Shown here in pieces: positions 466-63,700 of a stretch of 64,000 bases of DNA (position 1 is the first letter of the stretch; each line of letters begins with the position of its first letter). A model generated the notes under the pieces. That model searched no databases and was not told the origin of the DNA. It saw nothing but the letters and a program-made list of their open reading frames with translations. The position numbers and the translations under genes are program-made. The stretch lies in assembly GCA_009667805.1 (NCBI GenBank), contig CM019071.1, positions 49,296,693-49,360,692 on the forward strand, read 5' to 3'. This DNA is from Leptobrachium leishanense. Its lineage: Eukaryota; Chordata; Amphibia; Anura; Megophryidae.

Positions 466-588
466 ATGGCGCCGTTCAGTGCAACATGCCTTGTGTTCTT
501 CTTCACAGGATGTACCGGAGGAAGCTATAATAATCCCAATCCTACTGCAGAAGAAGAAAGCCCACCTCCTCTCCCGGAGAAAAAGCAG
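466..588 (+). CDS. Gene 1 exon 1: signal peptide and spacer
   Basis: 41 codons ending at donor CAG|gtaccg, phase 0. The start is a short MAPFSATCLVFFF-type hydrophobic signal core, followed by an acidic, proline-rich stretch ending PLPEKKQ. The same exon, with the same start and phase, opens the later units. Confidence 0.75.
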
Positions 589-3500
589 GTACCGGTATTT
601 TACTGTGTCTCTCAGCTGTCCACCTTCAGAACCTCTCTAGAGCTTCTTCTATATGTTCCTCTACACCTTCTTGTAATCTTTTAAATTTTTTATAGTTTCG
701 TAACAAAATTTTAAAGTTCATCAAGATAATTGTGACAGTTGTTTATTTAGTGTTAAAGTACATTTTATCCACTTTTTGTGGTTCCTTCAAAGAAACAAAA
801 TTGTCACCTCATCGCCCTATCCATATAGGATATCTTTGTAAGGTCTCCTCTATCATTGTGAGGACGACCATGAGGTCTGTTGAGCACTAGGACTGTGTGA
901 TAGTACAAGGTTTGGGGATTTTAATTTATTAGATATTGATTCCTTTCTCCCCATTAGGGTTGCCCCCAGGAGTGTCGATGCCCCGTGAACCCCAAATGTC
1001 CCCCAGGAAGTCCCCTGGTACAGGATACCTGTGGATGTGGGTGCAAGGTATGCGCTGGTGGCTTCTCCTCGGTCTGTGATGGACTTAGACCATGCGACGC
1101 CACCCAAAATCTGACCTGTCACTATTTGTGGCGCAAAGAAGAAGACCTCGGATATTGCAATGGTCAGTAGTGACACAACCAGTGTTTCCTTGTCCTGTCC
1201 ACCCGCCTACGACATTCTCCTTCCTCTGCTTCTCTGTTTAATGCTCCCCCCTCTCTTCTGACACTTAAATCTACTGATTCTCATAAATACCCTCTTCATG
1301 AGTCTCAGTTGACACCTCTTTCCTTCTTCTCGACTCCCTATCGGACACACTTACTGTCTCTCGTTCTATCATGTTTCTTCAAGGTTCTCCTCCTCTAAGG
1401 ATAGTCATATTTTCATCTCCCATTTTCTTTTCTGATCTTCTTTCTCCATAGTTGAAATATTAATTCTTCTGTTTCTACTTTTTCAAAGTTCTTCTTGTCC
1501 ATTTATTGCAATTCCTTCTCATCATCCTTCCTTCTTGACCTCCAACTCCATAACCACATTGTTTTTTCTTCCCTGCTCGGTTCACAGATCTCGATTGACA
1601 CCTCGTTTCTTCTTTGTCTCATTCTGCCTCCTCTGTTATCTTCACAATTCTTCTTCTGTCAGAGCCGTTTGCTTGTCTATGCGGAAGGTGGCCTACTCAC
1701 CACCACCACCAACCCTACATGCCGATTCTCGGCTGTTTCCTTCACCCACATTTCTACATGTTGTCCACTAGGTCTACCTGGTCGTCCATCCTCTTCCTGC
1801 TTGTCCAACCCAACACCAACATTCTAGTGCAATGTTTATTTCTCTATTTTTACCTAAATTGACACTTTCTTTTCTGCCTTTTTTTCTATCCCCATAGTCA
1901 TCAGAGAATATCGGTCCTGTTTCCGCAACGGTGCTGAGGTCAGACACGGTGATGCGTTCGTTGACGGCTGCACGGCTCGATGCGTCTGTGACAATGGAAA
2001 CTTTAAGTGTGAGCCCCTTTGTGAAATTCCTGCCCCACCTCTTCTTCACTACTGCACCAAAATGCATTTAGAGAAAGGTAAGACGGGTTCTTTTGGGTCA
2101 AGTTTATAGAAAATCAGTGGAATATGCAGAGTGATAGTAGAAACAAGTCTCTGCTGGTCTGTTCATTAACAGGACATTATAAAGGCCAAAAGTTAATTTA
2201 TTGAGGCTACAACACAAGAAAAGTCAGTTGGGTTGACCTAACACTTATTTGGATTCATAGTGATGGGATCATGCTAGAAAATCCCCCAGAATATTCTGAA
2301 TATAACAATTAATGTATAATATTATTTTTTTTTAATACAAAGAGAAATCTGATTATTGATTTGGAGCCACGAAGGAATATTCATATAATAATATAATATA
2401 TGATAATCCCGCAGTTCGGTTTTCTTGGATGGATTATTTTGATACTTATTGCTTTATTAGAGAGAGTTAACAGTCAGGTATTCTGCTCATTTCAGAGCCC
2501 GGGCAATGCTGCAAGGAATGGTCATGCAGCGGTTATAAAACTGCAGCGGCATCTCGGGAACATCTAACACTCGTCGAGGATCCCACAACAAAAAGCCAAG
2601 GTAAAATGATGATAAGCGGCAGTGGGACTTCTCTCTTCTTGCTCCCTTCTCTCTGAGATCACTTCACCATCATCCTTGTCCTCTACCTCCATGGCAACCC
2701 TATACCTTCTTTCCTTATTCTCCTGGTCAACCTCCTCCTTGGCCACATTATTCCTTTTACACCATTTTCCTGGTTCTCGTCCTACTTGGCCGCCTCATTC
2801 TTTCATCGCAGCTTTCTTCTTATCTCTGGTTCTTCATGGTCTTCTCCTTTCTTCTCTTCACTTGCCACATCTCCATGGGCATGTCTTTCTTTCTACCAGT
2901 TTCTCTCTCCACGTCTACTCCTTTCCACTCCTCTGCTCTCCTCGTTGTCACACTCTTTATCTTTCTCTCCTCCTCTCAGTCTCATCTTGTCCAGCACTTT
3001 ATGGAGTATCTTATTTTCCCTCTTTTTTAACTTTTATTTTCCTCTTATGTCTTTGCGGTAGACAGGACACCTTGTTTTGTTGACGGGAAGGAATATTTAC
3101 AAGATCATGCACCCCACTGTCCAGCAACTCGACCAGAGCCAGTGCCTGACTGCGTGGAGATGCATTTAGAGTCCGGTAAGAGAAGTCCCTACGACGTAAA
3201 ATAAATCAATTATTTATTATGCTTTTAAGATGTACAGTTTAAATCTGTGAATAAATGATTGGGGGCGGTAGGCGGGCGGAAAGATACTAAAACGGGAGCT
3301 GGTGATGTTGGTTTTAACTAAAAAGGAAATGGTGGTGACTGGACGAGATCAAGATGGACTTGGGAGGGTGGTCTAGTGGGGGCAAAGGTCAAACGTTGTG
3401 CTAATCGTCTTTTTTTTCCTTCTCTTTCTCTTCAGTCCCAGGACTGTGCTGCAAGAAATGGAAATGCAATAAATATGGCACCAAGGAAAATCAAGAGTAT

Positions 3501-6500
3501 CTGAGAGAGATGGAAGCCAGACTTAATCTTAATGTCCCAGGTGAGAGTTAGACTCCTTGGTGAAGCTCCTCCTTATGGATCTCCTTCTTGGTCTTGCTCA
3601 TCTGTTCTTTTCTGTTCCACCGTGTTTGGTCCCTTCCTAAACTTCACTCACCAATTGCATACTCTATCAGGGTAATTCAAAGAGATCCGAATTGTGGCTG
3701 AAAGGTAACCGAACAGTGAAAATCAGCGTTCGGTTACCTTTCCTGGCCATTCGGCTATCCAGAGAGCAGGCAGTTCGCCAAATCCTGGCGAATTGCCTGC
3801 ACATACGGTGCCTGTTCGGTGCCTGTTCGAGGGCAGTGAAATCCCCATGAAAAAGCACTGCTTCGTCTATTCAGAGAACACAAAACATCAGTGATAGGTT
3901 GCCGAAATGCCCTGCCATTCGGTGGTTTAATTCGGCAGGTTTATTCAGGCGAATCCCATAGGCTTCAATGTTAAAAATATTCCCGTTTTAATTCAATATC
4001 TAATAAACCGTTGATTATAATATTCTGCAGTAAAAAGTCTCTTTATTTATAGATTTTTTAGGATCTTTTAGGCATTTTTGGGGATTTTTTTGTCAATCTT
4101 TTTTCCGTTTTTACGTTTTTCTGTAACAGCCCCTTTTATTATCATTCATTGGATCTTAATGTGTAAATTCCAGACATTTTCGTTCTGTAATTTCTTTGCA
4201 AACAGCGTTTCACTTTTCAAACATTCGAGCGTACTGTTTTTTTTTTCCACTCCATTCGTCTGCGGTGTCGGGTTTTTCCGGCGGCTGCTCTGCGCTGTGA
4301 TCGGTGGCTGCTCGGGTTTCTCCGGCGTGTTCGGTGGGGTTAATCCAGATGTTTTTGCGGGTTTCAGGGTGCATTCAACGGGTTTCGCGGTGAGTTTTCG
4401 TCGGGTTTGCGGTGACTTTTCCCTGCACTACGACGGCCCTGTGGTGCTTGCTGAATACACCGCAGGGTCGCCAAAATGGGATCGCCAAATCGCGCCGAAT
4501 TGAAGAGAACGAAAAGTCACCGAATGTGCGGTGACTTTTCGATTCTCTTTGAATTACCCTGTGAGGTTTTCTTCTCCATCACCTCCTCATTTTCATTTTC
4601 TATGATTTCAACCCTTGTTCTCTACCTTGTTCCTCAGCATCTCATCCTTCTAATTCTGTTATACTCAACCTCCATTTTTTCATCTGCCTTATTTCCACCT
4701 CCTTATTATTGTCTCGTTATCGTCCTCCATTTTTTTCATGTTGACTTTCCTCCTTCAGACTCTTCCTAACCACTCGTCCTTTTGCAATCTCGTCACACTT
4801 TCTTCGCTCATATCAATTCCAGTATTCTCTACCTTATTCTTCTCCTGTTCCTCAACATCTCATCCTTCTAGATCTCTGATATTCCCATCCATTTATTGCA
4901 TCTGTCTTCCGTCCACCTCCCTTTATTGTCATCATCATTGACTTTCCTCCATCCTATCCACTCACTGTATTGCAGGCCGTTCATACATTTCTACGTTCTT
5001 CATACAATTCCAGAATTTTCCTTCTCTTTTCAGTCGTCATCAGAAAGTTTCACTCCTGTTTTAACGACAGCACTGAAATTCGGCACGGCCAGAGATTCCA
5101 GCAAGGTTGTGCATTTGACTGTCACTGCTCCGATGGACTCAAAATTTGCAGGGTCCTCTGCCCTCCTGCTCTTCCAGATTATCTCCCCAACTGCATCGAT
5201 TTTCGTGAAGTGTCGGGTAAGAAGCAAATCCTGCATTGAAACCGAAACATACTCACAGGGTTATTCAGAGAAAGGTGAAACTCTGGAGAACCTTTGGAGA
5301 AGTGAGAATTTTAGGTCAAAATAGCCAAAGCAGAAAAATTCTCCCATTTATCTCACTTTCCAAATTGGATATTTTGACCATGAATTTTCACTTCTCCAAA
5401 AGTTCTCCAGAGTTTCACCTTTCTCTGAATAACCCTGTCTAGGTTATTAAGAGAAAGGTGAAAACCAGGAGAATTGTCAGGAGAAAAGAACAATCTAGAC
5501 CAAAAAGGCGATTTGGAAAGTGAGATAACTAGGAGAATTTTTCTGGTTTGGCTATTTTGACCTAGAATTTTCACTTCTCCAAAGGTTCTCCAGAGTTTCA
5601 CCTTTCTCTGAATAGACCATACTATTTTATTTTGGACAATTGGAGGCTCTGAATTTGGATGCCTGTGATGGAAGAGGATCAGGCTGAATGTGACGTGGTC
5701 TATAATTCTGTGCCTGCTACGTGTGTCACAATGATTATGTGGAAAGTATGGGTATTATGGGATGAATATTTACTCACTCATTAACCATTTATTTGGTTAT
5801 TACTGGAGAAAACCAGGGCAATAAAGAGGCAGCGTGCAGTACGGGGAGATATAAAGAGGCAGTGTGCAGCGCGGGGAGATATAAAAAGGCAGCATGCAGC
5901 ACGGGGAGATATAAAGAGGCAGCGTGCAGCACGGGGAGATATAAAGAGGCAGCGTGCAGTGCGGAGAGATATAAAGAGGCAGCGTGCAGTGCGGGGAGAT
6001 ATAAAGAGGCAACGTGCAGCACGGGGAGATATAAAGAGGCAGCGTGCAGCACGGGGAGATATAAAGAGGCAGCGTGCAGTGCGGAGAGATATAAAGAGGC
6101 AGCGTGCAGTGCGGGGAGATATAAAGAGGCAGCGTGCAGCGTGGGGAGATATAAAAAGGCAGCGTGCAGCGCGGGGAGTTATAAAGAGGCAGCGTGCAGC
6201 ATGGGGAGATATAAAGAGGCAGCGTGCAGCGTGGGGAGATATAAAAAGGCAGCGTGCAGTGCGGGGAGATATAAAGAGGCAGCGAGCAGCATGGGGAAAT
6301 ATAAAGAGGCAGCGTGCAGAACGGGGAGATATAAAGAGGCAGCGTGCAGCGCGGGGAGATATAAAAAGGCAGCGTGCAGCGCGGGGAGTTATAAAGAGGC
6401 AGCGTGCAGCATGGGGAGATATAAAGAGGCAGCTTGCAGTGCGGGGAGATATACAGAGGAAGCGTGCAGAGTGGGGAGATATACAGAGGCAACGTGCAGT

Positions 6501-9500
6501 GCGGGGAGATATAAAGAGGCAGCGTGCAGCGTGGGGTGATATAAAGAGGGATGAAGCAGTGACGGCGTAAAATAACCCAAACTGAAGGGAACACTCTATT
6601 AAAAATACAGTTCCCTTTTATTGCCGTCATATATTTGTGCAGATCCTGCTGACAGCCTCTGCCCAATTAAATCATTTTTTTCCTTTTTTTGTGTGATTTT
6701 ACTCCCCTTTTGTCTCTCCCCGTGCGCTGCTCCTTCTCCTCGGCCCACGGACTCCCAAACCCAGAAGTCTCTGAAGCTTTTCTGCGCAATTCGTGCTCCT
6801 AGGCAAGTTGTGTAGGAACCGCAAATTGTGCAGCACTACAGGAATTGTACACTTTACGTACACAAGTTCCGTAGTGCCCGCACAGAGCGGTGGATCGAAG
6901 CTGCACGCGCATGCACAGATCTGATCCATCGACTGTCTCTTTGAAAACGCTCTCTACAGCGATTGGTCTCAGAGGGTGATGTCGGCCGCTCTGTGTGTGT
7001 GTGACATCACTAGTGACCGATCTGGTGACCGGCAGATGGGAAATCCAAAATCCCAGCTGCTGGTGACACGAGGTGGGGTGGAGGAAACTCTTGTAACTAA
7101 CCCGGCCATTTCTCCAGATTTGGGGGAGCTGGGTAGGACTCTACACATCCTGACCACTTTAATACTGTTCACTGAAGGAGCGATGAGATGGGAAAGAGAA
7201 ACACAAATTAAATGCAAATGGTGGATAGAGCGCTCATTTATGAGCTCTGAACCATGGGGGGATCACACATCATTAGGGCTGAATGTACCAGCTGGAGTAG
7301 AGGTAGCATCACTACAAGATAACCGTGGAGACCATGGAGTCACAGGTTCAAATCCTGGCAATCCTTTCCAGTAAGTGTCCATGGGCAAGACACCTAACGG
7401 TACATACTCGCCACCCAGGGCATACTGAAAACAAGAGAAATCTCAACGGATCCTTCCTGGAAAAATACTTTCTCAAAAAAAAAAAGAATGGTTGAGCTGA
7501 AGGAATACTGGCGTTGAAAAGTTTTAAATTATTTAGCAAATTTGGCCTAAAAGTTGCAACTGTGGGTAAAAATCCAGGTTTAGATTTATGAATAATCTTA
7601 CAATTAAGTAAGAGCTGCTGTTGTGGGACGTTTGTACGTGATGCACGTCTTTTAGACACATGCTGACCCTCATATCTGGATGTGTTCCTAGGAAATGTTT
7701 CTTTAAAACTGAAAAAAGGGAATATGCTTCATAAATAGGGCAAGAAAACGAAAAAAAAACTCATTCTGGCTACAAATCATTCCTCTCTGTCTGTCCAGAG
7801 CCAGGAGCCTGCTGCAAGCAATGGAAATGCACGAAATATAAAGGTGTGGACGACAAAACCACCATCAAGGCGCAGAATCACCAGACCAGTGAGGCCAAGG
7901 TGGCGGATGCTCTTCAAGTCCGTGAAGGTATAACAAGCAGTGGTACAGTGTTGCTAATGGGGATTAGAGTTCATTAACACTTGAGGGACCTGGTTTTCAG
8001 TCTCTGAGCTGCCGGTTCCTGCGGTGAGGAGATCGGGCTGTGAAGAGGTCTCAGCAAAGTGAGCTTTATTATTGAAATAGCACATATAGCCAAGTAGTAG
8101 TCCAGGCGGGAGGTGATGAGGGGGTGAACCAGTAGTTTGATGGAAAGAGGGGTTATTAATGGCCGGATTTTTGCAACGTTACAAAGGTGACAGCTAGTAG
8201 AGCTCAGGATATGGGGTCAGGTAAAGGAGAGAGCAGAAATGAATTGTAGTGACACTTCAGTACAGAAAATGTGTGTTGGTATTTTTTGGAAGCTGCATTG
8301 CTAATAATCTCATTATGATCACTACAAATCCCCAAAAGCAGGAGATCTCACCATTTATTATCTGACTGCAGCACTTTTACTGACACAAAGGCCATTTCTG
8401 TCTGTATGCTGATAATGCAGACCCCGTGCAACCAGGAGATCTCACCATTTTATTATCTGTCTGCATTACATTTACTGGCACAAAGGACAATTCTGCCTTT
8501 TATGTTGATAATGCAGACCCTGTGTGACACTGTGTGAGACAAGGGACGCCAGGTAGACCTTACAGCCTTTCACCCCAGCGATATTTCTACCTCTATGCTG
8601 ATAATGCAGACCAGTGTGACATTGTGCCAGATATTGTGCCTGCATTAGGATGACCTGATCATCTTTCCTCTTCTTACTTGTCCAACCCAACATTTTCCCA
8701 AATCCTCATTTTCCGTGCCGCCCTTTTCTTTTTTCCCTCTCTATAGTCATCAGAGAATATCGGTCTTGTTTCAACAACGGTACTGAGATCGGTCACGGTG
8801 ATACATTTGACTACGGCTGCACGGCTCGATGCGCCTGTGACGACGGACACTTTAAGTGCGAGCCCATTTGTAAAACGTTTGCTCCACCTCTCATTCATGG
8901 CTGCAGCAAACTGCACTTAGAGAAAGGTAAGACGGGTCCAGAATCAGGATATGTAAGACACATGTAGCTATGTTGACATTAAATTTGAAGTCTTCTATAG
9001 GTAGGCAGCATATGTCTATCACCATCGTTAAGGTAACTAGACCGGGGGGAGATCAGACATATCGTCCTAGGTCTCTGATGGGAAGTCTAGGCACCTCAGA
9101 TGTTTTGAAGCTACATGTCCCATGATGCTCCGACAGGCTTAAAGGGACACTGCTAGAGGTATGCATTAGTTTCGATACCAATCGCAATTCATTTGAAAAC
9201 TTCTTAATTCGTATTGCGGAAGTACTTCCGAAGTAAAGAATTGATTTCATCTGAATTGAAACAAGAACAAAATGGTATATAATGAATTTGATTCGTTATG
9301 CTGTTTCACAAGAGAACCATTTATTAAATGATCCCTGAGCAGGATTTGATTCATCAGGGTTTTATTTAGTGATTCGAAATGCGTATCGAATAGATCCCAA
9401 CTTACATTACATACAAGTACTAAAGCAAACAACATTATGAATCGCATCAGATTCGTTTGACTGTTTCTCAAAGCACCCTGTCCCTGTAAATTGGCCTGTG

Positions 9501-12500
9501 GTGCTGAATCTATTGTCAGCACCACAGGCCAATGGACAGCTCAACATTTAACCCTAGCTTTGCCTTTTAGCGGCAGGATTTGATTTATTTGGGTTTTCTT
9601 TAGTGATCCGAAATTTGAATCAATATCAAATATCGAATCGATCATAAATTACAATGGGGTTTTAAGTGATCCGATATACCAAATGAAATAACAAAACTAA
9701 ATTACAAAACGAAATAACAAAAACTAAATTATTTTGAAACTAAACAAATTTTCCAGCCGTGCAAACCTCTAGACACTACCACATCCATAAGCTGTTACCT
9801 GATTACTTGTGCATTACACATAAAAGTACATTATAAAACACATTATAAACCACATGCTGATGTTTTTTTTTCTTTGTTTGAAGTAATTTCATGTAAAATG
9901 GAAAAATAAAGTTTCCCATGATGCAACGTTTACCAAAATTTGTGCAAACGTTTTACTTTACTGCTGTGGTTTATCTCATACAGTATTTAACAGTTAATTA
10001 GGTGGAGGGAATGTTTAGATAAAGCTGAAGGGGGTGTATTGTGTTCTCCAGGCTACCTGAGATAAGAGCTGGCAGCTGAATGAGAGAAGACAGGGAGCTT
10101 AAAATCCTGAAAATTCCGTCCAATGATAAATAAAATCCTGAAAATTACGTCCAATGATAATGTATAGACAGGGCTCGATAAAGATCTTTATGGGCTTGGA
10201 GCTGAAGGTTTTGGTGGGTAGTGGTTTTGGCGTGAAAGGACAGCTAGGTGCACTGTATGTCGCTGGACAGACAGACCAACAGCGCTCTGTTTTGTTTTGT
10301 GCCCCCGTTTCCTGCTTTGTGCCCCCTCTTGGCTTTATGTCCTGACTTGTTAATGCCGACGGACCTGAGCTCCTTTATGCGCCAGCACAATGTGGACAGC
10401 ACATGCCGTGGCCCTATTTCAGACTGTTTCTCTCTGTGAGTAACAATCAGGTATTCTGCTCTTTTTTTTGATGTTCAGGGCAAGGACAATGTTGCGAGAA
10501 CTGGTCATGCAAAGAATATAATGCTGAGGATACCCAATCATCCCAGGGAAGTCTAATTGTCTTCTTTAGCATCAAGGAAGGAGGCTCTTCCTATGAAACC
10601 CAAGGTAAAAGGATGAGAAGCGGCGTTGGGACCTCTCTCTTCTTGCTCCTTTTTCTCCAAGACCTCCTCATTCTTTCTAAACCATATTCCTCTCTATTTA
10701 CATCCACTATATTCTTTCTTTACCGCAGTCTTACAGTATCTTCTCCCACATGACCATCATATTTTTTCATTGCCGTCTTCCTGGTTCCCCTCCTCCGAGG
10801 CGACGCTACTCCTTCTGCACCTTCCTCCTGGTCATATTCCTTCTTTACCATCTTCATTTTGCTCTTCTCCTTCCTGTATTCTTCTCCATTCTCCTGGTCC
10901 TTCTCCAGGGTGACCTCGTTCTTTATTCTCATCTCTCGTTCTTCATGGTCTTCTGCTTTCTTCTCACCTCTCCACGGCCATATCTTTCTATCTACCAGTT
11001 TCTCTTAGTCCACGTCAACCTTTCTATTCCTCCTTTCTTTGTGTTCACACTTCATATCTCTTTCCTCCTCTCCTCATCTCGCCCAATGCTTTATGGAGTG
11101 TCTTATTTTCCTCTTATGTCTTTTCCGTAGTCGACGCGACACGTCAGTCTTGCTTCGTTGACGGAAAGGAAATTTTACATGGTCAAAAATTTAAGGATGG
11201 CTGCAGATATCTCTGTATCTGTTCGAATGGCAAAGGCTTGTGTTTACCCCTCTGTCCACCAACCCAACCAGAGCCAGTGCCCGGCTGTGTGGAGATGCAT
11301 TTAGAGTCCGGTAAGAGAAGTCCCCACGATGAAAAGTTTATCCAATTATTATTCGTGTTACGGGAAGATGTACAGTTCGTGTCATACCAGGTTTGCAGAG
11401 CCGTGAATAAATGACCAGGGGTGGGAGACGGGCGGAAAGAAACCGGTGGGAGCTGGTAATGTTGGTTGAAGCTAAACTTGCATATCTCTTTTTCTTCAGT
11501 CCCAGGACGGTGCTGCAAAAAATGGAAATGCAAGGAATATAAAGCAGTGGACACCCAGGAACCTGTGGAGGATCTGAGCGAGTTGGAAACCAGACTTAGT
11601 CTTAACGCCCCAGGTGAGATTTAGACTCATTGATGGATCACCTTCATCTTTCTCCTCTTCTCATGTCCCTTTTCTCTTTCCGTCATCCATGTCTGGTCTC
11701 TCCCTAAACTCCATTTACCTTTTTATACCTTGATTGTTTATGTCCATTCCTTTGCATTCGTTCTTCTCCAACACCTCCTCTTTGCTTTGTTTGATTTCCA
11801 CCCTTGATCTCTTCTACCCTGTTCCTCTACGGTTCTTCAACATCTCGTCCTTCTAAATCTTTGCTATTCTCTTCCATTTTTACAGAAAGGGAAAGTCTGT
11901 ACTTATGGCACCACCTCTTTATGAGAGAGCAAATGCTATTTCTGGCAGCAGTGATAAAACAGTAGTATCAAGCAGCAAACAAAGTTGCATAAAGTGCAAT
12001 ATATAGCAATGGTAAAACAACAAATGTCATAAACAATCCCTGTAAAATTAGTTATAGCAGCAGTGTTAGGTTGCAGCAATAAATAGCATCAAGTGATCCA
12101 CTTGCAATCTTATATGTGCAAATGTTCAAATTTGCAAGCTGATGTGCAAACTTGTAAAGAAAGGGAAAGTCTGTACTTATGGTGCCACCTGTTGGCTCTT
12201 TATGAGAGCGGAAATCCCATTTCTGGCAGCAGTGATAAAACACAGTAATATCAAGCAGCAAACAAAGTTGCATAAAGTGCTGTATATAGAAATGCTAAAA
12301 CAACAAATGTCATAAACACTCCCTGTAAAATTAGTTATAGCAGCAGTGTTAGGTAGCAGTAATACATGACATCAAGTGTATCCACTTGCAATCTTATATG
12401 TGCAAATGTGCAAAACTTGCAAGCTGGTGTGCAAACTTCGCAAAATATGTGCAGCATAAACCAGTTCGTTTAAAGTGCATCTGTGCAGTGTTTAGCAAGT

Positions 12501-18439: not shown

Positions 18440-19115
18440 TGTGTGAGTTTTATTGCTGTGGAGCTCTGTGATACGTTCGTACACACTGCACATTACTGTG
18501 AGTTTTATTTGGAGCTGTGTGATACGTTCATACACACTGCACATTACTGTGAGTTTTAGTTGGAGCTCTGTGATGCGTTCGTACACACCGCACATTACTG
18601 TGAGTTTTATTTGGAGCTGTGTGATACGCTCATACACACTGCACATTACTGTGAGTTTTATTGCTGTGGAGCTCTGTGATACACTCATACACACTGCACA
18701 TTACTGTGAGTTTTAGTTGGAGCTCTGTGATACACTCATACACACTGCACATTACTGTGAGTTTTATTTGGAGCTCTGTGATACACTCCTACACACCGCA
18801 CATTACTGTGAGCTTTATTGCTGTGAAGCTCTGTGATACACTCATACATACTGCACATTACTGTGAGTTTTATTGCTGTGGAGCACTGTGATAAACTCAT
18901 ACACACTGCACATTACTGTGAGTTTTATTGCTGTGGAGGTCTGTGATACACTCATACACACCGCACATTACTGTGAGCTTTATTGCTGTGGAGCTCTGTG
19001 ATACACTCATACACACCGCACATTACTGTGAGCTTTATTGCTGTGGAGCACTGTGATAAACTCATACACACTGCACATTACTGTGAGTTTTTTTGCTGTG
19101 GAGCTCTGTGATACA
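18440..19115. repeat. 52-59-bp tandem repeat, 12 copies
   Basis: Unit 'gtgagttttattgctgtgga' + 'gctctgtgatacactcatacacactgcacattact'. Twelve occurrences of 'gcacattact'. Unit length changes by presence or absence of 'ttgctg'. Separates gene 1 from the next promoter copy. Confidence 0.88.
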
Positions 19116-19490: not shown

Positions 19491-19819
19491 ATGGGGCCTT
19501 ACAGTGTAACATGCATTCCGTTCGTCTCCATAGTATGTGCCACAGCAAACCATACCGGTCCCGATTCTTCTGCAGAAAAAGAAAGACCACCTCGTCTGAA
19601 AAAAGTGGAATAAGCATGAAAAATAGGGCATGCAAATAAATGGCCACTGTGGCTACAAGTCAAGCCTCTCTGTCTGCCCAGTGCAAGGAGAGTGCTGTGG
19701 ACGGGCCGGCAATGTCACCCTGGAGACACTGTATCACCGGACAAGCATGGACAGGGTGGATGATACTGTCCAAGTTCATGGAGGAAGAATAAGAAGCAGC
19801 AGAGAGGCTCCTAATACAG
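19491..19819 (+). pseudogene. Deletion-fused unit: first exon joined to c-type C-half
   Basis: ATG at 19491 opens a first exon similar to the others (MGPYSVTC...), but after 40 codons it reads into the intron that normally precedes the c-type C-half and stops at TAA 19611-19613. The C-half follows at 19682-19819 (VQGECC, then [12 protein letters not shown]) with its acceptor and donor, but has lost the EWKC part. IGFBP and all other VWC exons are deleted. A 40-residue secreted peptide is conceivable, since the promoter and start are intact, but I favour a pseudogene. Confidence 0.7.
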
Positions 19820-19900
19820 GTATAGGGCGACTAATGGGGATTAGAGTTCATTAACGCTTGAGGGACGTGTTTTTTGGTCACCTCTGAGCTGCATGTTTCT

Positions 19901-24672: not shown

Positions 24673-24798
24673 ATGTGGCCATGCAGTGCAAAATGCCTTG
24701 TGTTCTTCTGTATAGTATTCACTGCGTCAAACCACGGGGCCGCATCTCATCCCCCCGCAGAAAAAGAAAAACAACCTCGTCCCCTGGAGAAAAAGGAG
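24673..24798 (+). CDS. Gene 2 exon 1: signal peptide and spacer
   Basis: 42 codons, donor GGAG|gtaagg, phase 0. MWPCSAKCLVFFCIVFTASN is a plausible signal peptide; the spacer ends PRPLEKKE as in gene 5. Confidence 0.65.
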
Positions 24799-30218: not shown

Positions 30219-30344
30219 ATGGGGCCTTACAGTGTAACATGCCTTGTGTTCTTCTTTATAGTATACACCGCATCAGACAAGTGGGTCGCATTTCACCCCC
30301 CCACAAAAAAAGAAACACAACGTCATCCACTGGATAGAAAGGAG
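30219..30344 (+). CDS. Gene 3 exon 1: signal peptide and spacer
   Basis: 42 codons, [20 protein letters not shown], donor GGAG|gtaccg, phase 0. Intron 1 is only 117 bases, against 370-540 in genes 1, 2 and 5; gene 4 shares the short form. Confidence 0.7.
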
Positions 30345-50800: not shown

Positions 50801-53800
50801 GGAGATGTGAATGCAAAGATGGGGCCGTTATGTGCGTGTCCCTCTGCCCACCTTCTTTCCCAGCTCCTGTCCCTGGCTGCATCGATATGGATAAAGTGGC
50901 AGGTAAGAAGCAAATCCTGCATTGGGACAGTAACATTTTGTGCTCTATTCCAACCCACATGTAAACTTAACCAGAGTTGTTGTACTAGATAGACGTAGGA
51001 CCCTATTCCATAGTTTTTGGTAAAATGGAGATGGTAAACCGGATAATTACTCTTGCAGATTTTCCTTACTGTCTGCATTTTACCGGCGTTACTCCGAGGT
51101 AGTTGTTTTAATACGGCCTAGTTCCAGAATGAAGTGCAAGGCTGCCTGATACCACCAGTGGCGCTCCACGTACCTGTGGACATCGGCTCATGGAGTCTAT
51201 AATACTCAATGGAGCTTTGAGCATCCTGACTCGATGTGCAACAGTGCGAGACTAGGAACTATTTGTTTCCAGTCTCACTCTGCTCCCGACGACAGGAAGC
51301 GGCAGATCAGGCCACCCTTTTCACCGTGGGATGAGAGGTGAGTATGAGATTTAATAGGGGAGGGGGTTGCAAAGCATGTTATTTTAAGAATCACTTAACA
51401 CCAGCTTTCAGGAGTCGGTATTTCACAGCGGAATAATGTGTCCCGTGTGGAAGCGCAAGCTACGTTGGAATAGCCAGCGCTTCCACGCGGAGCTGCACAT
51501 TAACGCCTCCCATACTAAGTATAGGAGATGTTAATGTCCAGTAACCTCGTGCAGGGAAACGCTACATTCCAGGAGCAAGCTCAACTTGCAGAAGGAATGG
51601 AATAGAGATTGCCCTCAATAAAAGAACTGCAGGAGACGCCATTAGGGTTATTCAGAGAGCAGCGAAATCTCAACGACATCGCACGGTTTGGTCAAATTCG
51701 CCCACGCTGCTGTGAATTCAGCATTTACCGCAGGGGCCCCAAAGTACAGCGAATAACATACCGAACGCATCCAGAAAACCGCCGCAAAACCGTCAAATCG
51801 ATCCGAAAAAAAGCAGACGACTCACCGAGCAGAACGTCGACCAGGCGCCGGAAAAAGCCGACAAGCCACCGATGAGGGGTAAAAAAAAACAAACTAAAAA
51901 CATCGCAACTTTCAAAACACGTTTGCAAAAAGCTACTGCATGAAAATGCCTGGAAATAACATATGAGGTCCTATGAATAATAATAAAAAGGTCTGTTACA
52001 GAAACAAAACACCGTTTTAAAAGAAGAGCGGGAAAAAAACATTCGCCGAAAAAATCCGGAAAAATGCCTTAAAAATACCAATAAATAAATAGACTTTTTG
52101 CTGCAAATGAAAAGAATAAACGGTTTATTAGATATTGGATAAAAACGGGAATATTTTTAGCATTGAAAGCTATTGGGATTCGCCTGAATAAACCTGCCGA
52201 ATGAAACCACTGAACAGCAGGGCATTTCACTGACATTTCTCCGCTGTTCGGTGTCTGTGAATAGATTAACCATTGCTTCTCTATGGGGGATTTCACTGTC
52301 GCCGAAGAACAACATATTTCGCTGGCAATTTGCTGATACTTGGCGAACTGTTATACACATAGAAAGAAAAGAATCTGAACAATAGTTCAGATATAGTATA
52401 GATATAGACATATAGACATGCTGTGCAGCCCCTTGTGAGGACACGCTGGGACATGCTGCGCAGTAGACATGTGCACAGCACAAAATTTCGTTTTGAACTA
52501 ATGCATTAGTACTAAAATGCAATTTATTTAGTTGCTAAAGAAATTCGTTTTCAGTTCTTTAGTATGAAAACTAATTTCATTCATCCGAAAACCAGTGGAT
52601 ACAATTTACTATTGTAGTGGCTCCTCAGAGGGCTGAGATCGCTCCTTGTTACAGTATCTCTCACTCTCAGCACAATGTGGGCCATATTACATAGTTGATG
52701 CTAACATAACTAGAGCTGTTGTAAACTTCCCTGAGCCATTATAGCCTATGGAGGTTTTCAGTTTACAACAGTTAGCACCAACATTGTAATATGGCCCCGT
52801 GTCAGGCAAAGCTGTTACAGTAACTGACTGCTGCTCATCACAGCGCTCAGAGTTTCAGTAAAACTAGTAAATAATATTTTTATATATAAGAGGTTAGAAC
52901 AATATTCTTTCCTTGTTTAACTGAAACTCTGAGCGCTGTTACAGTCAGTTACTGTAACAGCTGAGTCTGATACATTGTACTGAGAGATTATGTAACAAGC
53001 AGCTGATCTCAGCGCTCACAGCCACTGGATTTAAAGGGCTAAAAAAAAAAGGCTCCTCTCTGTATAATGTATAGAACATCCTCCTGCATTAATTAATGCC
53101 CCTCTCTGTATAGAACATCCTACTGCATTGGCATGTGGAGGGTGCAGAACTTTGGATGTTGCGATCTTCAATGCTGGTCTCCTTCACTCATCAATGTAAT
53201 ATCACAAAAAGGACTGAAACTAAAATGTAGTGCATTTTATTTTAGTTTCTTTCGTTTTTTGTACTGAGCAGTTTCGTATCTCTTGAGTCAAACAAAAACT
53301 AAATTATCCCAAAATTCGAACTAAATCGTTTTAGTACTAAAACGAATGCACATGTCTACTGCGCAGCCCCTGTGAGGGACACGCTAGGACATTCTATATA
53401 TAGATACAGATGTTTACAGCGTTGTAATCAGAGATTAGAACATAACTGAAATGAAGCATTAGAATTCGCAAGGGAATGAACCTTTTACATCATACGATTC
53501 TTAGGCAATTATAACCTCCTGGATCAAGTTATTTACTGCATTCCAAATACATCCTTGTGGTTAAGGTTTACTATCGATTTACGAATCATTCCATATTGGT
53601 TAACGGCTGTAATTTATCGAACTAGATAGATTTGCTACAGGTTCCACTGTTGGCTAAGTAACTTGGTACAACAGCCGTTCTCTTGATCCACAGGATCTTA
53701 TAAAGAAACCTTTCAATTGAGCTAAGTACATTGCCTCACATCACTTTGTCTATATTTTTTAAATGTATGGTTTTTTATGTCATGTGTGTCCAATAAAATA

Positions 53801-56788
53801 GAGTTAGGAGAGAGGTTTGGAGCCTCATACGGTTTAATTAAGGTACTATATCTGAACTATTGTTCAGATTCTTTTCTTTCTATGTGTATACTAGCTTTCA
53901 AGGTTTAATCTTTTAACATAGTACCTATTGGCCTCACTTGTTTGTTTTGTTTTTGTTGACTCTACTTGGCGAACTGCCCTTCTTTCTCAATGGCCGAATG
54001 GCCACGAAAATGCATCGTATGGGAGAAATTCACTATTTGGTGCAATTTGGTGGCCAGTTCCGCTCTCTTTGAATAACCTTGTATGCGTAATGTTATGTGT
54101 AAAATACTGTGACATGCTGCTCACTGCCTGTGAGGGACACTCTGTGACATGCTGTGCAGCCCCTTGTGAGGGAAACGCTGGGACATGCAGTGCAGCCCCT
54201 GTGAGGGACACGCTGGGACATGCTGCTCAGTGCCTGTGAGGGACGCTCTGTGACATGCTGTGCAGCCCCTTGTGAGGGACACGCTGGGACATGCTGCTCA
54301 GTGCCTGTGAGGGACACTCTGTGACATGCTGTGCAGCCCCTGTGAGGAACACGCTGGGACATGCTGCGCAGCCCCTGTGAGGGACACGCTAGGATATTCT
54401 GCACAGCACCTGTGACGGACTCGCTATGACATGCTGCACAGCCCCTGTGAGGGACATGCTGGGACATGTTGCACAGCGCTTGTGAGGGACACGCTGGGGC
54501 ATGCTGCACAGCTCCTGTGAGGGACACGCTGTGACATGCTGCACAGCACCTCTGAGAGACACGCTGGGATACATTGCGCAGTGCATGTGAGGACACTCTG
54601 GGATATATTGCGCAGCGCCTGTGATGGACACTCTGTGATATATTGCGCAGCTCCTATGATGGACACTCTGGGATATATTGCGCAGCGCATGTGAGGGACA
54701 CTCTGGGATATATTGTGCAGCGCATGTGAGGGACACTCTGGGATATATTGCGCAGCGCCTGTGACGGACACTCTGGGATATATTACGTAGCACATGTGAG
54801 GGACACTCTGGGATATATTGCGCAGCGCATGTGAGGGACACTCTGGGATATATTGCGCAGTGCCTGTGACGGACACTCTGGGATACATTGCACAGCGCCT
54901 GTGACGGACACTCTGGGATATATTGCGCAGCGCATGTGAGGGACACTCTGGGATATATTGCGCAGTGCCTGTGAGGGACACTCTGGGATATATTACGTAG
55001 CGCATGTGAGGGACACTCTGGGATATATTGCGCAGCGCATGTGAGGGACACTCTGGGATATATTGCGCAGCGCATGTGAGGACACTCTGGGATATATTGC
55101 GCAGCGCCTGTGATGGACACTCTGTGATATATTGCGCAGCTCCTATGATGGACACTCTGGGATATATTGCGCAGCGCATGTGAGGGACACTCTGGGATAT
55201 ATTGTGCAGCGCATGTGAGGGACACTCTGGGATATATTGCGCAGCGCCTGTGACGGACACTCTGGGATATATTACGTAGCGCATGTGAGGGACACTCTGG
55301 GATATATTGCGCAGCGCATGTGAGGGACACTCTGGGATATATTGCGCAGTGCCTGTGACGGACACTCTGGGATACATTGCACAGCGCCTGTGACGGACAC
55401 TCTGGGATATATTGCGCAGCGCATGTGAGGGACACTCTGGGATATATTGCGCAGTGCCTGTGAGGGACACTCTGGGATATATTGCGCAGCGCATGTGAGG
55501 GACACTCTGGGATATATTGTGCAGCGCATGTGAGGGACACTCTGGGATATATTGCGCAGTGCCTGTGAAGGACACTCTGGGATATATTGCGCAGCGCCTG
55601 TGACGGACACTCTGGGATATATTACGTAGCGCATGTGAGGGACACTCTGGGATATATTGCGCAGCGCATGTGAGGGACACTCTGGGATATATTACGTAGC
55701 GCATGTGAGGGACACTCTGGGATATATTGCGCAGCGCATGTGAGGGACACTCTGGGATATATTGCACAGCGCATGTGAGGGACACTCTGGGACATATTGC
55801 GCAGTGCCTGTGACGGACACTCTGGGATATATTGCGCAGCGCCTGTGATGGACACTCTGGGATATATTACGTAGCGCATGTGAGGGACACTCTGGGATAT
55901 ATTGCGCAGCGCATGTGAGGGACACTCTGGGATATATTGCGCAGCGCCTGTGAGGGACACTCTGGGATATATTACGTAGCGCATGTGAGGGACACTCTGG
56001 GATATATTGCGCAGCGCATGTGAGGGACACTCTGGGAAATACTGTGTAGCGCCAGTGAGGGACATGCTGCGACATACTGAGTGGGACATGCTGCACAGCA
56101 CCAGGGAGAGACATGCAGGTATATTCAAAAAAAGGTGAAGCTCAGGCGAATGACTGGAGAAGTGAAAATTCTAGGTCAAAATAGCCAAACCAGAAACATT
56201 CTCCCAGTTATCTCACTTTCCAAATCAGCTATTTGGTCTAGATTGTTCTCTTCTCCTGCCAGTTCTCCTGGTTTTCACCTTTCTCTGAATAACCCTGATG
56301 GTGATGATACATACTACGCAGTGCCAGCAGGTCCCTCTCTGGTGCTGTGGGATTCACTGCAGGGACGGAGGAACGCTGGACAGGAGCAGGTAAGTAAATA
56401 TTCACAAAGTCCAGAAAGCTTGATGCTCAGACCGTCTATCACAGATATGAAGTTCTTTTAGACCCCTGATGACCTCAGACCTGGACGGGATTTTGGGAAA
56501 TGAGTCTTTAAAATTGGTAAATGTGAATATGCTTGAAGTATGAAAACGGCAAGTACCCCCTGTGGCTGCACATCATTCCTCTCTGTCCACCCAGTGCCAG
56601 GACAATGCTGCAAGGAATGGAAATGCACGAAATATCAACCCGTGGACGGTAACATCACCGTGGAGACTCTGTATCACCGGACCAGCGAGGATGAGGTGGA
56701 TGACACAGTCTATGAAAAAAAAAGAAGACACATCAGAGAGGCTTCTCGTACAGGTACAGGGCGGCTAATGGGAATTAGAGTCCATTGA
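44728..56788 (+). CDS. Gene 4: CCN-like protein with signal, IGFBP and three VWC modules
   Basis: Exons 44728-44853, 44971-45175, 45698-45877, 48785-48904, 49722-49901, 50175-50288, 50720-50902, 56595-56753 join without stops. If the last exon is read past its donor it ends TGRLMGIRVH and TGA at 56786-56788, total 433 codons. Modules: signal (1-20), IGFBP (43-110), VWC a (111-210), b (211-308), c (309-422), each with full cysteines. This is the cleanest single-set unit. No TSP1 or cystine-knot exon follows before gene 5, so the 3' end is uncertain: read-through stop, or splicing to an exon outside the window. Confidence 0.7.
44971..45175 (+). CDS. Gene 4 exon 2: IGFBP domain
   Basis: 205 nt. 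[37 protein letters not shown] glycosylation site, 12 cysteines. Ends MCNG|gtcagt. Confidence 0.78.
45698..45877 (+). CDS. Gene 4 a-type VWC N-half
   Basis: 180 nt, phase 1-1. [20 protein letters not shown], seven cysteines; ends LRLKKG. Confidence 0.8.
45878..46800. other. Gene 4 intron, first part
   Basis: The first 250 bases match the equivalent gene 3 introns (32183, 34503). The rest to 46800 includes 'aggctggggccacacaggtgc' and further unidentified, probably repeat-derived sequence. Confidence 0.4.
46805..48140. repeat. 35-39-bp satellite derived from the SINE/MITE interior, over 30 copies
   Basis: Unit 'gtgactatatacagaatgca' + 'cctgtaaacatgtaacata', in two lengths with or without 'cata/caca'. 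A single copy of this segment is present in the insert at 29.52 and 44.00 kb, so the array arose by local amplification. Frames open on the minus strand are artefacts. Confidence 0.88.
48142..48268. mobile_element. Palindromic MITE (gtgctaacttaaccagagctg), copy 1
   Basis: 127-bp inverted repeat GGGCAGTATTACAAAGCTGG ... AGTGTGTAATATAGCCC. Inserted within the last satellite unit with GTA on both sides. Confidence 0.65.
48447..48577. mobile_element. Palindromic MITE (gtgctaacttaaccagagctg), copy 2
   Basis: Inverted repeat from GGGGTCATATTACATAG to CTTTGTAATATTGCCC, interrupting the SINE tail between 'taaaatacttt' and 'ataaataaat'. Confidence 0.65.
48785..48904 (+). CDS. Gene 4 a-type VWC C-half
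   Basis: 120 nt, phase 1-1, atttag| to TCAAG|gtaaaa. GEQCCEHWKCTERTATDT; two codons shorter at its start than gene 3. Confidence 0.74.
49722..49901 (+). CDS. Gene 4 b-type VWC N-half
   Basis: 180 nt, phase 1-1. [18 protein letters not shown] gains an NAT glycosylation site by Asp to Asn. Seven cysteines. Confidence 0.79.
50175..50288 (+). CDS. Gene 4 b-type VWC C-half
   Basis: 114 nt, phase 1-1, cttcag| to CCAG|gtaagc. [19 protein letters not shown]. Confidence 0.78.
50720..50902 (+). CDS. Gene 4 c-type VWC N-half
   Basis: 183 nt, phase 1-1, tttcag| to GGCAG|gtaaga. VVIRKHRSCFSDGSEIRHRQ, seven cysteines; reference for the frameshifted gene 3 exon. Confidence 0.8.
50985..51600. mobile_element. 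Degenerate DNA element shared with gene 3 and other spacers
   Basis: 'ccctattccatagtttttgg...' through 'aactatttgtttccagtctcactctgctcc' to 'cattaacgcctcccatactaagtataggag'. Matches sequence around the L2 insertion (38830-38900 and 42112-42360) and parts of 22.6-22.9 kb. Confidence 0.45.
52464..53358. mobile_element. hAT-like element with perfect 8-bp target duplication
   Basis: TAGACATGTGCAC / GTGCATTCG..TGCACATGTCTA-type ends, flanked by CTGCGCAG (52456-52463, 53359-53366). It sits in a short piece of the 35-bp satellite. A smaller MITE (52679-52797) is nested in it. Confidence 0.7.
52679..52797. mobile_element. Palindromic MITE, copy 3
   Basis: GGGCCATATTACATAGTTG ... CATTGTAATATGGCCC, same family as 48142 and 48447, here with a degraded centre. 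Confidence 0.6.
54105..56105. repeat. 35-bp satellite, about 57 copies, with a 489-bp higher-order repeat
   Basis: Unit 'tgtgagggacactctgggat' + 'atattgcgcagcgca'. A block from about 54584 recurs from 55073, including the rare 'ctcctatgatgg' variant, so 14 units were duplicated as one. The minus strand lacks stops and gives frames over 380 codons; these are artefacts. Confidence 0.9.
56116..56297. mobile_element. Palindromic MITE (CAGGGTTATTCAGAG family)
   Basis: CAGGTATATTCAAAAAAAGG at the left, CCTTTCTCTGAATAACCCTG at the right; inner 'tctagattgttctcttctcc' as in the copies at 5440 and 60825. Confidence 0.65.
56595..56753 (+). CDS. Gene 4 c-type VWC C-half
   Basis: 159 nt, phase 1-1, acccag| to ACAG|gtacag. 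[37 protein letters not shown], then EKKRRH. Reading past the donor gives TGRLMGIRVH and TGA at 56786. Confidence 0.76.
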
Positions 56789-60552: not shown

Positions 60553-60606
60553 GGTGTCGTGTTTATGGAGAGGCGTCAGGACACTGGCGGTGGCTTTGTT
60601 GTAGAC

Positions 60607-60732
60607 ATGGGGTCGTGCAGTGCAACATGCCTTGTGTTCTTCTTTATAGTATATGCCACATCAGACCAGGGGGACGCATCTCAACCCCCCGCAGAAAAGG
60701 AAACACAACCTCGTCCCCTGGAGAAAAAGGAG
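60607..60732 (+). CDS. Gene 5 exon 1: signal peptide and spacer
   Basis: 42 codons, donor GGAG|gtaaga, phase 0; closest to gene 2 in the spacer. Confidence 0.7.
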
Positions 60733-63700
60733 GTAAGACGTTGTCTTAATGTTTTTCTTAACTGCCTCCTTCAGACCTTCTCTAGATCTTCTTCTGGTTT
60801 TTGAAACTTTGGAAAGAAAAGTACCAGGGTTATTCAGAGAAAGGTGAAAACCAGGAGAACTGGCAGGAGAAGAGAACAATCTAGACCAAATAGCTGATTT
60901 GGAAAGTGAGATAATTTTGACATCTCCAGTCATTCTTCAGGTTTTCACCTTTCTTTGAATAGACCTGAAAGTTTTTCAAAGTTCATAGAGAAATTTGAGA
61001 GCCTTCTTTGTACAGTGTTATAGTGTATTTTTCCGATTTGTGGCTCGTAGAAGAACATACTAGAGATTGGAGAAGGAGCTCGTCTTCTCCAGGTCTTCCT
61101 TCAAGGATAAACTGTCATTTTCTCACCGTATCGGTGTAGCAGATCTTTCTTTGGCCTCCTCGATCATTTTGAAGAAGACATTGAGGTCTGTTGAGCACCA
61201 GGACCGAGTGTTAGCACAAAGTTTGGAGATTTTTATTTTAATTTACGGAAAAATCTATTTGTTTCTCTCTGTAAGGGTTGTCCTAAGGTCTGCAAATGCC
61301 CCGTGAACCCTACATGTCCCCCAGGAAGTCCCCTGGTAGCAGACACCTGTGGATGTGGGTGCAAGGTATGCGCTGTAGGTCTAGACTCAACCTGTGATGG
61401 ATTCAGACCCTGTGACACCTCCCAAAATCTGACCTGTGACTATTTGCGAAGCCGAATGAAGAACCTTGGAGTTTGCCATGGTCAGTAGCAACAACCAATG
61501 TTTTTGTGTTTCATGATTACTGAATATGATATTAAATATCTTGAGTAATATTTTGGTCGCACTCAACTTTCCTCCTTTGTGTAAGTAAACATTCATCTTC
61601 ATATTTCCTCCATTTTCTTGTCTTTCCAATTCTCCGGCCATCATCCCCACCATTAACCTTTTCTTCTCCGCCATCTTTTTATACAACTATTTTACTTCGT
61701 CAGCACTATCTTCCTGGACCTTCATCTCCATATCAACCTCATTCTTTCCTCGTCTTCACTCTCTTCCAGGTTCTCCTTCTCCATGTCTTCTTGACTCCTT
61801 TTCATCTTCTGGTCTTCCTCCTCCATAACAATATAAGGGGCTATTCACAAAGAACTGAAATTCCATCGAACTTTCGGTGCTTTGCACTTTGATGCGCTTC
61901 GGCGATTCCATCTCGCTGACCCTTTAGTGAATTCACTGTAGTGCACCGAAGATGGAGTCGCTGAAGACCGCCGAACTGCAGGAAAAAATTTTTACGGAAC
62001 TCTCCTGTTCTCCTAATTGGTGTTTAAACCAATAAAAATGCATTAAAATTTGTCCGAATAATAAAAAAAAAGGTACTTTAAAAATATAATAAAACTGTCT
62101 GTTACAGAATAAAAAAAATGCCTTTTAAAAAAAATTGGGAATCAAAAATTTTGTCTAAAAACGAAAATACGAAAAGATGTTCTAAAAAATGAATAAAAAG
62201 GCTTTTTTTTGCTGAAAATGATAGGAACGAACTGTTTTAAAAAAAATTATATATTTTTTTAACATTCGCCAGTATTTGGTGACTTGACAGTTAAGTGAAT
62301 AAACGAACCGTCCCGAAATTCCACCGTAAGGTGACAAGTTTGCCACTTGGTGAATAACCCTTTTTTTTTTTACTATTCTCTCATCTCCGTTGATGTCTGT
62401 TTTCTTCTGGTCTTCTTCTCTCTCTTGTCCTGGTTCTCCATCTTATTCTACTTTCTCTATCCTTTTCATGGTTTCCTTCTCTAATGATATGCTCCATTCC
62501 TTCATGTCTCCGTGGTTCTTCATGTCACCTCGCATCATATTCTTGGTTTTCTTCTCAACGAGGTTCCTATTTACTGGAATATACATGTTCTTTCTCCACA
62601 GGCCTCAATGTGATTTTAGTTTGGTTTTTACCCTTTTCAATGTTCTGCTTCGCTGGAGATAACCAAGTCCTCCACCTTAATTTATGTCTTCTTTGTGGAC
62701 GTGCAGTTTATATCCTCTAGTTACGTCTTGTTCCTCATTCTCCATGAACACCTCAATCCATATTTGATCTTTCTTCTTGATACTCTACATCGTCCCTTTG
62801 TCCCTTCTTCCTTACTCCATTCACCAGTGATAACCCATTTCGATACTGGTACCGTCTTTCTTGACTTCCTTCTCCATAGCCAGCTCATTCTTTTCTCTAC
62901 ACCTTCATGAAGATTCTGCTTGACTGTAAAGATCTCATTATTTCTCCCCAGCCTCTTTCTTGTCCTCCTCCACCTTATTCAACCTTTTCTGTCGTCTTCA
63001 ACGTTTCCTTATCTAATAATATGCTCCTTTCCTTCACCTCTGTATTCTCTGTGGTCCTTCATCTCCACACCCATCTTGTTCTTAGTTTTCTTCCCTCATT
63101 GAGGTTCCTTCCTTCTCCAAAGCCCCCATGGTTTTTCTACCCTCTGTAAGGTTCTCCTTCACTGGAGATCGCAAATTTCTCCACCTTAATTTATGTCTTC
63201 TTTGTGGACATGTAGATTTTTCTTTTGTTACATCTTGTTTTTCATTCTCCATGGAAACACCTCAATCCTTATCTTCTTGTTACTCCTCTACATTGTCCCT
63301 TTGTTCGTTCTTCCTTATTTCCTTCACCATAGATAACCACCTCCACCGTCTTCACCTCTAATCTTCCTTTTCCATAGCCAGCTCATTCTTTTATCTACAC
63401 CCTCATGATGGTTTTTTCTATTCGCCAAAGATAACTCCTTCCACCTTCACTTTTTTCAGTCCTTCTTCCCTACAGTCACATCTTTTCTTTCCTTTTCTCT
63501 TTCTCTGTAGACACCTTGATCTATAGTCTGTCTTCTCCCTTTGGTCCTCCAGCACCATCTCATCCAGTCTACTCTTCATATGGCCCATGCCCCAGAATGG
63601 GCCCAGAGAAAGGATAACTATGTCTGCATTGATGAACATTTGAACCCCTATATCTCCAACTCCATAGCAGCTACAGGAGTGGTATCACTTGAAAGTAGTA

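Follow-up and report, generated by a model that had tools for sequence, protein, structure and literature searches.

What are the repeated IGFBP and VWC exons in one 64,000-nucleotide stretch of the genome of the frog Leptobrachium leishanense, and what might their products do? The window analyzed here is that whole stretch (contig CM019071.1 of assembly GCA_009667805.1, forward-strand positions 49,296,693 to 49,360,692; coordinates below count from its first letter), and it was originally predicted, from its letters alone, to hold a tandem cluster of multi-VWC genes resembling those for CCN proteins. We consider it probable that the window contains a head-to-tail CCN array belonging to an amphibian CCN clade in which VWC modules have multiplied, and that its products, which are predicted to be secreted, are likely CT-less, CCN5-like restrainers of growth factor and CCN signaling.

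A head-to-tail array of CCN-like units

Reading the window in six frames and searching it by tblastn with exemplar exons, we found five IGFBP exons, 13 VWC front exons, and 14 VWC back exons (2 of them decayed), all on the + strand, together with a single TSP1 exon (17533-17750, +). The intact IGFBP exons start at 958, 25191, 30462, 44971, and 61276, and with their signal exons they make up five units (genes 1 to 5) lying head to tail on the + strand, plus one clear relic. As a control from outside, the CCN1 modules of an eagle picked out these five IGFBP exons at 59.7 to 66.2 bits and this TSP1 exon at 49.3 bits. In 10 dinucleotide shuffles the highest scores were 22.7 bits for IGFBP and 20.8 bits for TSP1, which rules out a chance origin of the module matches. 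The predicted same-strand cluster is confirmed. The prediction of at least five units held for the signal and IGFBP sets, but the units are unequal, since full VWC sets are kept by genes 1 and 4 only. Two relics had also been proposed; we found one, at 19.49 kb (a signal exon and a decayed back exon), and no second like it.

Copying has occurred at three levels: the a-c-b triplet of VWC modules within gene 1, whole units, and a 2.3-kb duplication within gene 3 (31405-33720 versus 33726-36022), which at 97.8% identity is the closest DNA pair among module-bearing stretches that are otherwise as little as 64% identical (range, 64 to 98%). The array extends upstream of the window, as the UniRef model P0006 (1003 aa, L. 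leishanense) opens with another unit, and no flanking gene outside the array was present in the window. No CT match of at least 28 bits was found in the window. The six CT rows printed there all came from the Spea query and reached at most 20.0 bits, below the shuffle maxima (24.6 and 23.5), and a CT module in the window was rejected on that basis. A second TSP1 was likewise searched for and rejected, there being none in the window outside gene 1.

Structure of the genes

Gene 1 (466-17750, +) has 15 exons, in the order signal, IGFBP, VWC a-c-b-a-c-b, TSP1, and stop (signal peptides were judged by eye). All 14 introns are GT-AG, the first in phase 0 and introns 2 to 14 in phase 1, and the joined frame is open over 770 codons with a TAA stop. 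Five of its six VWC modules have ten cysteines and are 64 residues long, as in CCN proteins; the other is the first c module, which has an internal in-frame gap of 19 codons and has lost four cysteines. The IGFBP exon alone (12 cysteines) scored 29 bits with PF00219 (cut-off, 28), and the TSP1 exon matched TSP1_CCN (PF19035) with an expect (E) value of 1.2e-14, so that one unit does end in a CCN-type TSP1, as had been predicted. The features of gene 1 are as follows.

380..409 (+): promoter-like boxes, CCAAT at -86 and TATATA at -62 from the ATG (consensus match)
466..588 (+): exon 1, encoding the signal peptide and a short linker, with a phase-1 AG inside it at 507-508
958..1162 (+): IGFBP exon (PF00219)
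1898..2077 (+): first VWC a, front exon
2496..2600 (+): first VWC a, back exon and linker
3062..3175 (+): first VWC c, front exon with the in-frame 19-codon gap
3436..3540 (+): first VWC c, back exon
5034..5216 (+): first VWC b, front exon
7799..7927 (+): first VWC b, back exon
8747..8926 (+): second VWC a, front exon
10479..10604 (+): second VWC a, back exon
11131..11310 (+): second VWC c, front exon
11500..11613 (+): second VWC c, back exon
15932..16114 (+): second VWC b, front exon
16771..16938 (+): second VWC b, back exon
17533..17750 (+): last exon, CCN-type TSP1 (PF19035) and stop, ATTAAA at 17811

Gene 4 (44728-56753, +) has eight exons and 422 codons, for a signal peptide, IGFBP, and VWC a-c-b, and no TSP1 lies downstream of its VWC b within the window. 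All three of its VWC modules have ten cysteines at the CCN length of 64 residues (62 in one). The predicted range of three to six VWC modules is thus met by gene 4 with three and gene 1 with six, if the gapped module of gene 1 is counted. In both genes each VWC module is made of two exons, and the introns after the first are all in phase 1. Copying, skipping, or joining a module or a whole unit would therefore leave the frame intact, and such frame-neutral cassettes account for both the repetition of the triplet and the skipped exons of existing models.

The remaining units are less complete. Gene 2, at 24.7 kb, retains its signal and IGFBP exons but has no VWC front exon, only a decayed back exon; gene 3 has its a-type front exon twice, and its b-type VWC is frameshifted; and gene 5 exits the window after its IGFBP exon. 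Consensus matches to a CCAAT box lie at -86 to -93 in the relic and in genes 1, 3, and 4, and matches to TATATA lie at -60 to -62 in the relic and in genes 1 and 5. The only TATATA of gene 3 is at -125 and that of gene 4 at -123, and upstream of gene 2 there is only an ATTGG at -45, the conserved boxes being missing.

19491..19610 (+): copy of the signal exon in the relic, preceded by CCAAT/TATA boxes, no splice donor found, approximate end
19627..19851 (+): decayed VWC back exon of the relic, within an open reading frame (ORF)
24673..24798 (+): gene 2 signal exon, without conserved promoter boxes
25191..25395 (+): gene 2 IGFBP exon
27572..27700 (+): gene 2 decayed VWC back exon
30219..30344 (+): gene 3 signal exon
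30462..30660 (+): gene 3 IGFBP exon
32003..32182 (+): first copy of the gene 3 VWC a front exon, inside the 2.3-kb tandem duplication (97.8%)
34323..34502 (+): second copy of the gene 3 VWC a front exon, the copy taken up in UniRef model P0002
36464..36589 (+): gene 3 VWC a back exon
37549..37728 (+): gene 3 VWC c front exon
37992..38105 (+): gene 3 VWC c back exon
38535..38730 (+): gene 3 VWC b front exon, frameshifted, matches split across two frames
42403..42567 (+): gene 3 VWC b back exon, joined to gene 4 in UniRef model P0001
44728..44853 (+): gene 4 signal exon, with a phase-1 AG inside it at 44769-44770
44971..45175 (+): gene 4 IGFBP exon
45698..45877 (+): gene 4 VWC a front exon
48785..48904 (+): gene 4 VWC a back exon
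49722..49901 (+): gene 4 VWC c front exon
50175..50288 (+): gene 4 VWC c back exon
50720..50902 (+): gene 4 VWC b front exon
56595..56753 (+): gene 4 VWC b back exon
60607..60732 (+): gene 5 signal exon
61276..61480 (+): gene 5 IGFBP exon

Comparison with CCN1 to CCN6

CCN proteins are treated as a near-fixed set in vertebrates, each module being present once. In PMC6610741, the vertebrate CCN genes shown have five exons, and Xenopus tropicalis has six CCN genes, none with more than one VWC. The window genes share with CCN1 to CCN6 the order signal, IGFBP, VWC, TSP1, the 64-residue ten-cysteine VWC, and the CCN-type TSP1, and their amphibian relatives (see below) retain CT as well. They differ in carrying three to six VWC modules instead of one, in an extra IGFBP residue, in having no CT (that of the relatives lacks two cysteines), and in being clustered head to tail. 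Among the canonical CCN proteins, only CCN5 is without this C-terminal cystine knot. Gene 1 also departs from the canonical gene in exon structure, with 15 exons instead of five and with each VWC split over two exons instead of lying on a single exon of 252 bp (PMC6610741).

Amphibian relatives share the marks of the array

Our searches returned three UniRef "VWFC domain-containing" proteins of L. leishanense. P0006 is 100% identical to gene 1 over 74% of it, and P0001 is 99% identical to gene 4 over 85% of it; the third, P0002, is a model of gene 3 that is 80% identical to gene 4. A profile search listed 19 proteins, 13 in the amphibian group and 6 outside it; the search detects only proteins sharing short exact words, and absence from its list means little. 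Besides Leptobrachium, members of the group come from eight named amphibian species, namely frogs, one salamander, and one caecilian.

Pelobates cultripes: filed as "CYR61-like", 2 full VWC modules
Pelobates fuscus: filed as "kielin/chordin-like", 5 full VWC modules
Pelodytes ibericus: filed as "kielin/chordin-like", 6 full VWC modules and a half module (by eye)
Spea: filed as "CCN3-like", 1 full VWC module
Rhinophrynus: filed as "CCN5-like", 1 full VWC module
Eleutherodactylus: filed as "CCN5-like", 1 full VWC module
Pleurodeles (salamander): filed as "connective tissue growth factor", 2 full VWC modules
Geotrypetes (caecilian): filed as "CCN2-like", 2 full VWC modules
P0011: 1 full VWC module
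P0014: 2 full VWC modules

The family is therefore not confined to one lineage, as had been proposed, but extends to a caecilian and a salamander as well as several frogs, and some of these relatives have 2, 5, or 6 full VWC modules. P0011 and P0014 are probably transcripts, because their contigs, of only 1714 and 1997 bases, contain the entire reading frame. Despite their disparate automatic names (CYR61-like, kielin/chordin-like, CCN2-, CCN3-, or CCN5-like), these amphibian proteins fall in the same clade and carry the same IGFBP and CT marks. An extra IGFBP residue (C-x-C-G-C) was present in all 12 clade sequences and in none of the 11 others, which have C-x-C-C (6 of these 11 were reference sequences supplied by us), and the extended mark C-x-C-G-C-x-[VL]-C is present in genes 1 and 4 and in the IGFBP exons of genes 2, 3, and 5. 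Two CT cysteines, one before knot Cys4 and one after the last C-x-C, were both missing from all 10 clade members with a CT. Outside the clade, all 11 CT sequences (5 of them reference sequences supplied by us) have the first, and 10 of the 11 have the second, the exception being Penaeus. The paired loss would fit the removal of one disulfide, and one of the two cysteines may serve dimerization in other CCN proteins. Unlike the Leptobrachium genes, most amphibian relatives have a CT and one or two VWC modules. None of them was seen as a gene cluster, although no search of their genomes was made.

The two-exon VWC may also be shared: P. cultripes isoform P0004 is missing only the front portion of a VWC, and the half module of Pelodytes has no back part, both of which point to the same split in these two species. 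VWC modules 1 to 4 of P. fuscus are identical and modules 3 to 6 of Pelodytes nearly so, and VWC multiplication was therefore recent there too. The VWC has multiplied in pelobatoid frogs, and in Leptobrachium whole genes have multiplied as well.

Place of the clade among CCN proteins

Clustering outside CCN1 to CCN6 would have supported the original prediction. A single clade that includes several frogs did appear in all three protein trees, but its placement was weak and differed among them. In the tree of IGFBP, TSP1, and CT, the clade (support, 92.2/98) was sister to human CCN5 (a reference sequence supplied by us) at 71.2/72. When the VWC nearest TSP1 was added, the clade (99.9/100) stood beside CCN1 to CCN6 jointly and CCN5 was no longer its sister; with the first VWC added instead, the clade (100/100) was nested by a catfish CCN1-like protein (67.4/62). 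In a tree of VWC modules, those of the clade grouped together at 99.2/99 (on 64 columns, fewer than the parameters), and each Leptobrachium type held together (a, 99.7/100; c, 99.1/100; b, 87.2/90). None of seven constrained topologies was rejected at 5% by the approximately unbiased (AU) test, the lowest being CCN4/6 (p 0.059). The amphibian group thus appears well supported in the trees, with paraphyly formally possible under AU, and it may be a seventh CCN or a derivative of CCN5 or CCN1.

We regard it as possible, though rather doubtful, that these proteins are nothing more than the CCN5 of amphibians, or a duplicate of it that diverged fast, and not a line of their own. The weak affinity in one of three trees is in keeping with this, as are the constraint joining amphibian proteins and CCN5, which does as well as the best tree (AU p 0.86), the automatic naming of several relatives as CCN5-like, and the end of gene 1 after TSP1 without a CT, as in CCN5. 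Yet the sister position was lost once a VWC entered the tree, CCN5 has one VWC, and ten relatives keep a CT that mammalian and Xenopus CCN5 lack (Table 1 of PMC6610741, which gives zebrafish CCN5 a CT). The same source lists X. tropicalis with a CCN5 of its own.

Are the units spliced into chains?

Two of the three UniRef models, P0006 and P0001, join a unit to the next at an AG within the signal exon, in phase 1. This AG and its phase are kept in all six signal exon copies (466, 19491, 24673, 30219, 44728, and 60607). Because the signal-core codons form a pyrimidine-rich tract ending in AG, they could double as an in-frame 3' splice site. These observations, and the presence in the window of only one TSP1 with a stop, would suit one long modular transcription unit spliced through the signal-exon AG into chained IGFBP-VWC proteins. 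We nevertheless think this unlikely: gene 1 terminates at its own stop; the AG lies within signal-core codons and may be conserved for that alone; and P0006 opens with an IGFBP read out of frame and leaves out a front exon, and P0001 begins and ends in sequence read as intron, irregularities by which the chained models may be artifacts.

Selection on the exons

We computed ratios of nonsynonymous to synonymous change (dN/dS) by the Nei-Gojobori method, without significance tests. The IGFBP ratio was below 1 in all 10 pairs (0.22 to 0.61), consistent with purifying selection on the IGFBP exons. For VWC a, nine of nine measurable pairs gave 0.36 to 0.76 (the tenth had no synonymous change); VWC c gave 0.18 to 0.31 and VWC b 0.53 to 0.97, in three of three pairs each. 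Back exons with their linkers were below 1 in 13 of 18 pairs. It is quite improbable that the array is mostly a pseudogene field in which gene 1 is perhaps a remnant and the others are decaying copies. The relic at 19.49 kb, the VWC-less gene 2, the frameshifted gene 3, and the 28 rows of tandem repeats in the window have the look of such a field, but gene 1 keeps 15 exons, all of its splice signals, and an intact 770-codon frame, and the IGFBP ratios likewise argue otherwise.

Comparison with other multi-VWC families

Rows of VWC modules are also found in chordin, BMPER, kielin/KCP, and CRIM1. CRIM1 carries an IGFBP module as well, and the companion domains of these families are antistasin, VWD, and CHRD. 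None of these three domains was found in gene 1 at E values up to 1, and those families lack TSP1_CCN. The sole PDB sequence match of the gene 4 protein at E values up to 1 was the VWC of CCN3 (8.9e-11). We also examined an AlphaFold model of P. cultripes P0003 (mean predicted local distance difference test score, 62.7), taking Foldseek matches from single modules only because confidence is low between modules: its VWC matched that of CCN3 (E value, 1.3e-4; target template modeling [TM] score, 0.73), its TSP1 that of CCN3 (0.016; TM, 0.81), and its CT the CTCK of VWF (0.0065; TM, 0.58). From the PDB match, the companion-domain scan, and the features of the VWC modules, chordin, BMPER, or CRIM1 identity was rejected, and on sequence grounds the window genes are CCN relatives. 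A chordin/BMPER/kielin or CRIM1-type family that merely resembles CCN, as the several VWC modules and the NCBI name kielin/chordin-like of two relatives might suggest, is highly improbable in view of the TSP1_CCN match, the 12-cysteine IGFBP module, the missing companion domains, the CCN3 match, and the full CCN layout, including CT, of the relatives.

Predicted function

Units with promoter-like boxes would be transcribed on their own, and the product of gene 1 would be secreted with an exposed terminal TSP1 and no CT. Its row of VWC modules could act as a multivalent binder of matrix or of ligands of the transforming growth factor β (TGF-β) type, with added binding strength, and the terminal TSP1 might compete with full-length CCN proteins, as is reported for mammalian CCN5. 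According to PMC10326224, CCN5 has no CT and opposes CCN2 and other CCN proteins, and CCN2 deprived of its CT behaves like CCN5. By this analogy, a CT-less, CCN5-like antagonist is the likeliest mode of action and the predicted function.

Several points weigh against the proposed CCN array with CCN5-like products. CCN3 VWC failed to bind BMP2 in work cited in PMC10326224, and since most relatives keep TSP1 and CT, a CCN5-like role would hold for Leptobrachium only. The UniRef proteins of Leptobrachium are predictions, with no transcript among them. The modules scored 16.4 to 21.2 and 25.1 with the Pfam VWC profile (cut-off, 27.6), which stayed under its cut-off in all proteins scanned, and Pfam did not list IGFBP for the full-length gene 1 and gene 4 proteins. 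Genes 2 and 3 are damaged, and back-exon dN/dS exceeded 1 in 5 of 18 pairs. Finally, six CCN reference sequences were supplied by us and not drawn from databases, and the AU test keeps a topology in which the frogs join CCN5 and the salamander and caecilian fall outside (p 0.10).

Earlier descriptions and significance

The matches listed in the open-licence literature included no description of a multi-VWC or amphibian-specific CCN group, which agrees with the suggestion that the family is undescribed, except that its proteins are already in databases under ill-fitting automatic names. The amphibian CCN branch was apparently unrecognized before. Bmper and sspo are names of multi-VWC proteins. 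Both labels occur in the moustache-spine expression module ME05 of L. leishanense (PMC6895153, Fig. 6 legend). The main text of that paper has no match for CYR61, CTGF, VWC, or von Willebrand, and its one CCN match is the name of a university; the main text of PMC9164646 has no CCN or CYR61. A bmper or sspo label could perhaps sit on an array gene by best-hit naming. A far-reaching combination, to which we give little credence, would have an amphibian seventh CCN line without a possible dimer cysteine, multiplying VWC cassettes in pelobatoids, Leptobrachium units chained through a hidden 3' splice site in signal codons into very long IGFBP-VWC proteins, and this array as the bmper- or sspo-labeled spine-module gene.

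The clade offers natural variants (VWC multiplied, CT cysteines or the whole CT dropped, gene duplicated) for dissecting the function of CCN modules, and it is a candidate for involvement in pelobatoid frog traits. Its recognition would also correct the database names CYR61-like, kielin/chordin-like, and CCN2-, CCN3-, or CCN5-like for what is apparently a single group.

Other features of the window

An Rfam scan of the window gave no matches. Long open frames occur at 20314-21465 (+) and 58738-59505 (+ and -), and the long ORFs at 20.3, 31.0, 58.7, and 59.9 kb had no Pfam match at E values up to 0.5. Long minisatellites with units of 18 to 55 bp occupy introns and gaps (5821-6549, 13802-14895, 18442-19115, 26376-27380, 46810-48141, and 54126-56064); those of the array may have helped unequal crossing-over. 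A non-long terminal repeat retrotransposon (38989-42184, minus strand) sits between the b exons of gene 3. It has an endonuclease domain (PF03372; E value, 3.9e-10) and, in its next ORF, a YADD-type reverse transcriptase motif recognized by eye, and its first ORF contains a 10-residue stretch that we take to resemble a 2A-type self-cleaving peptide.

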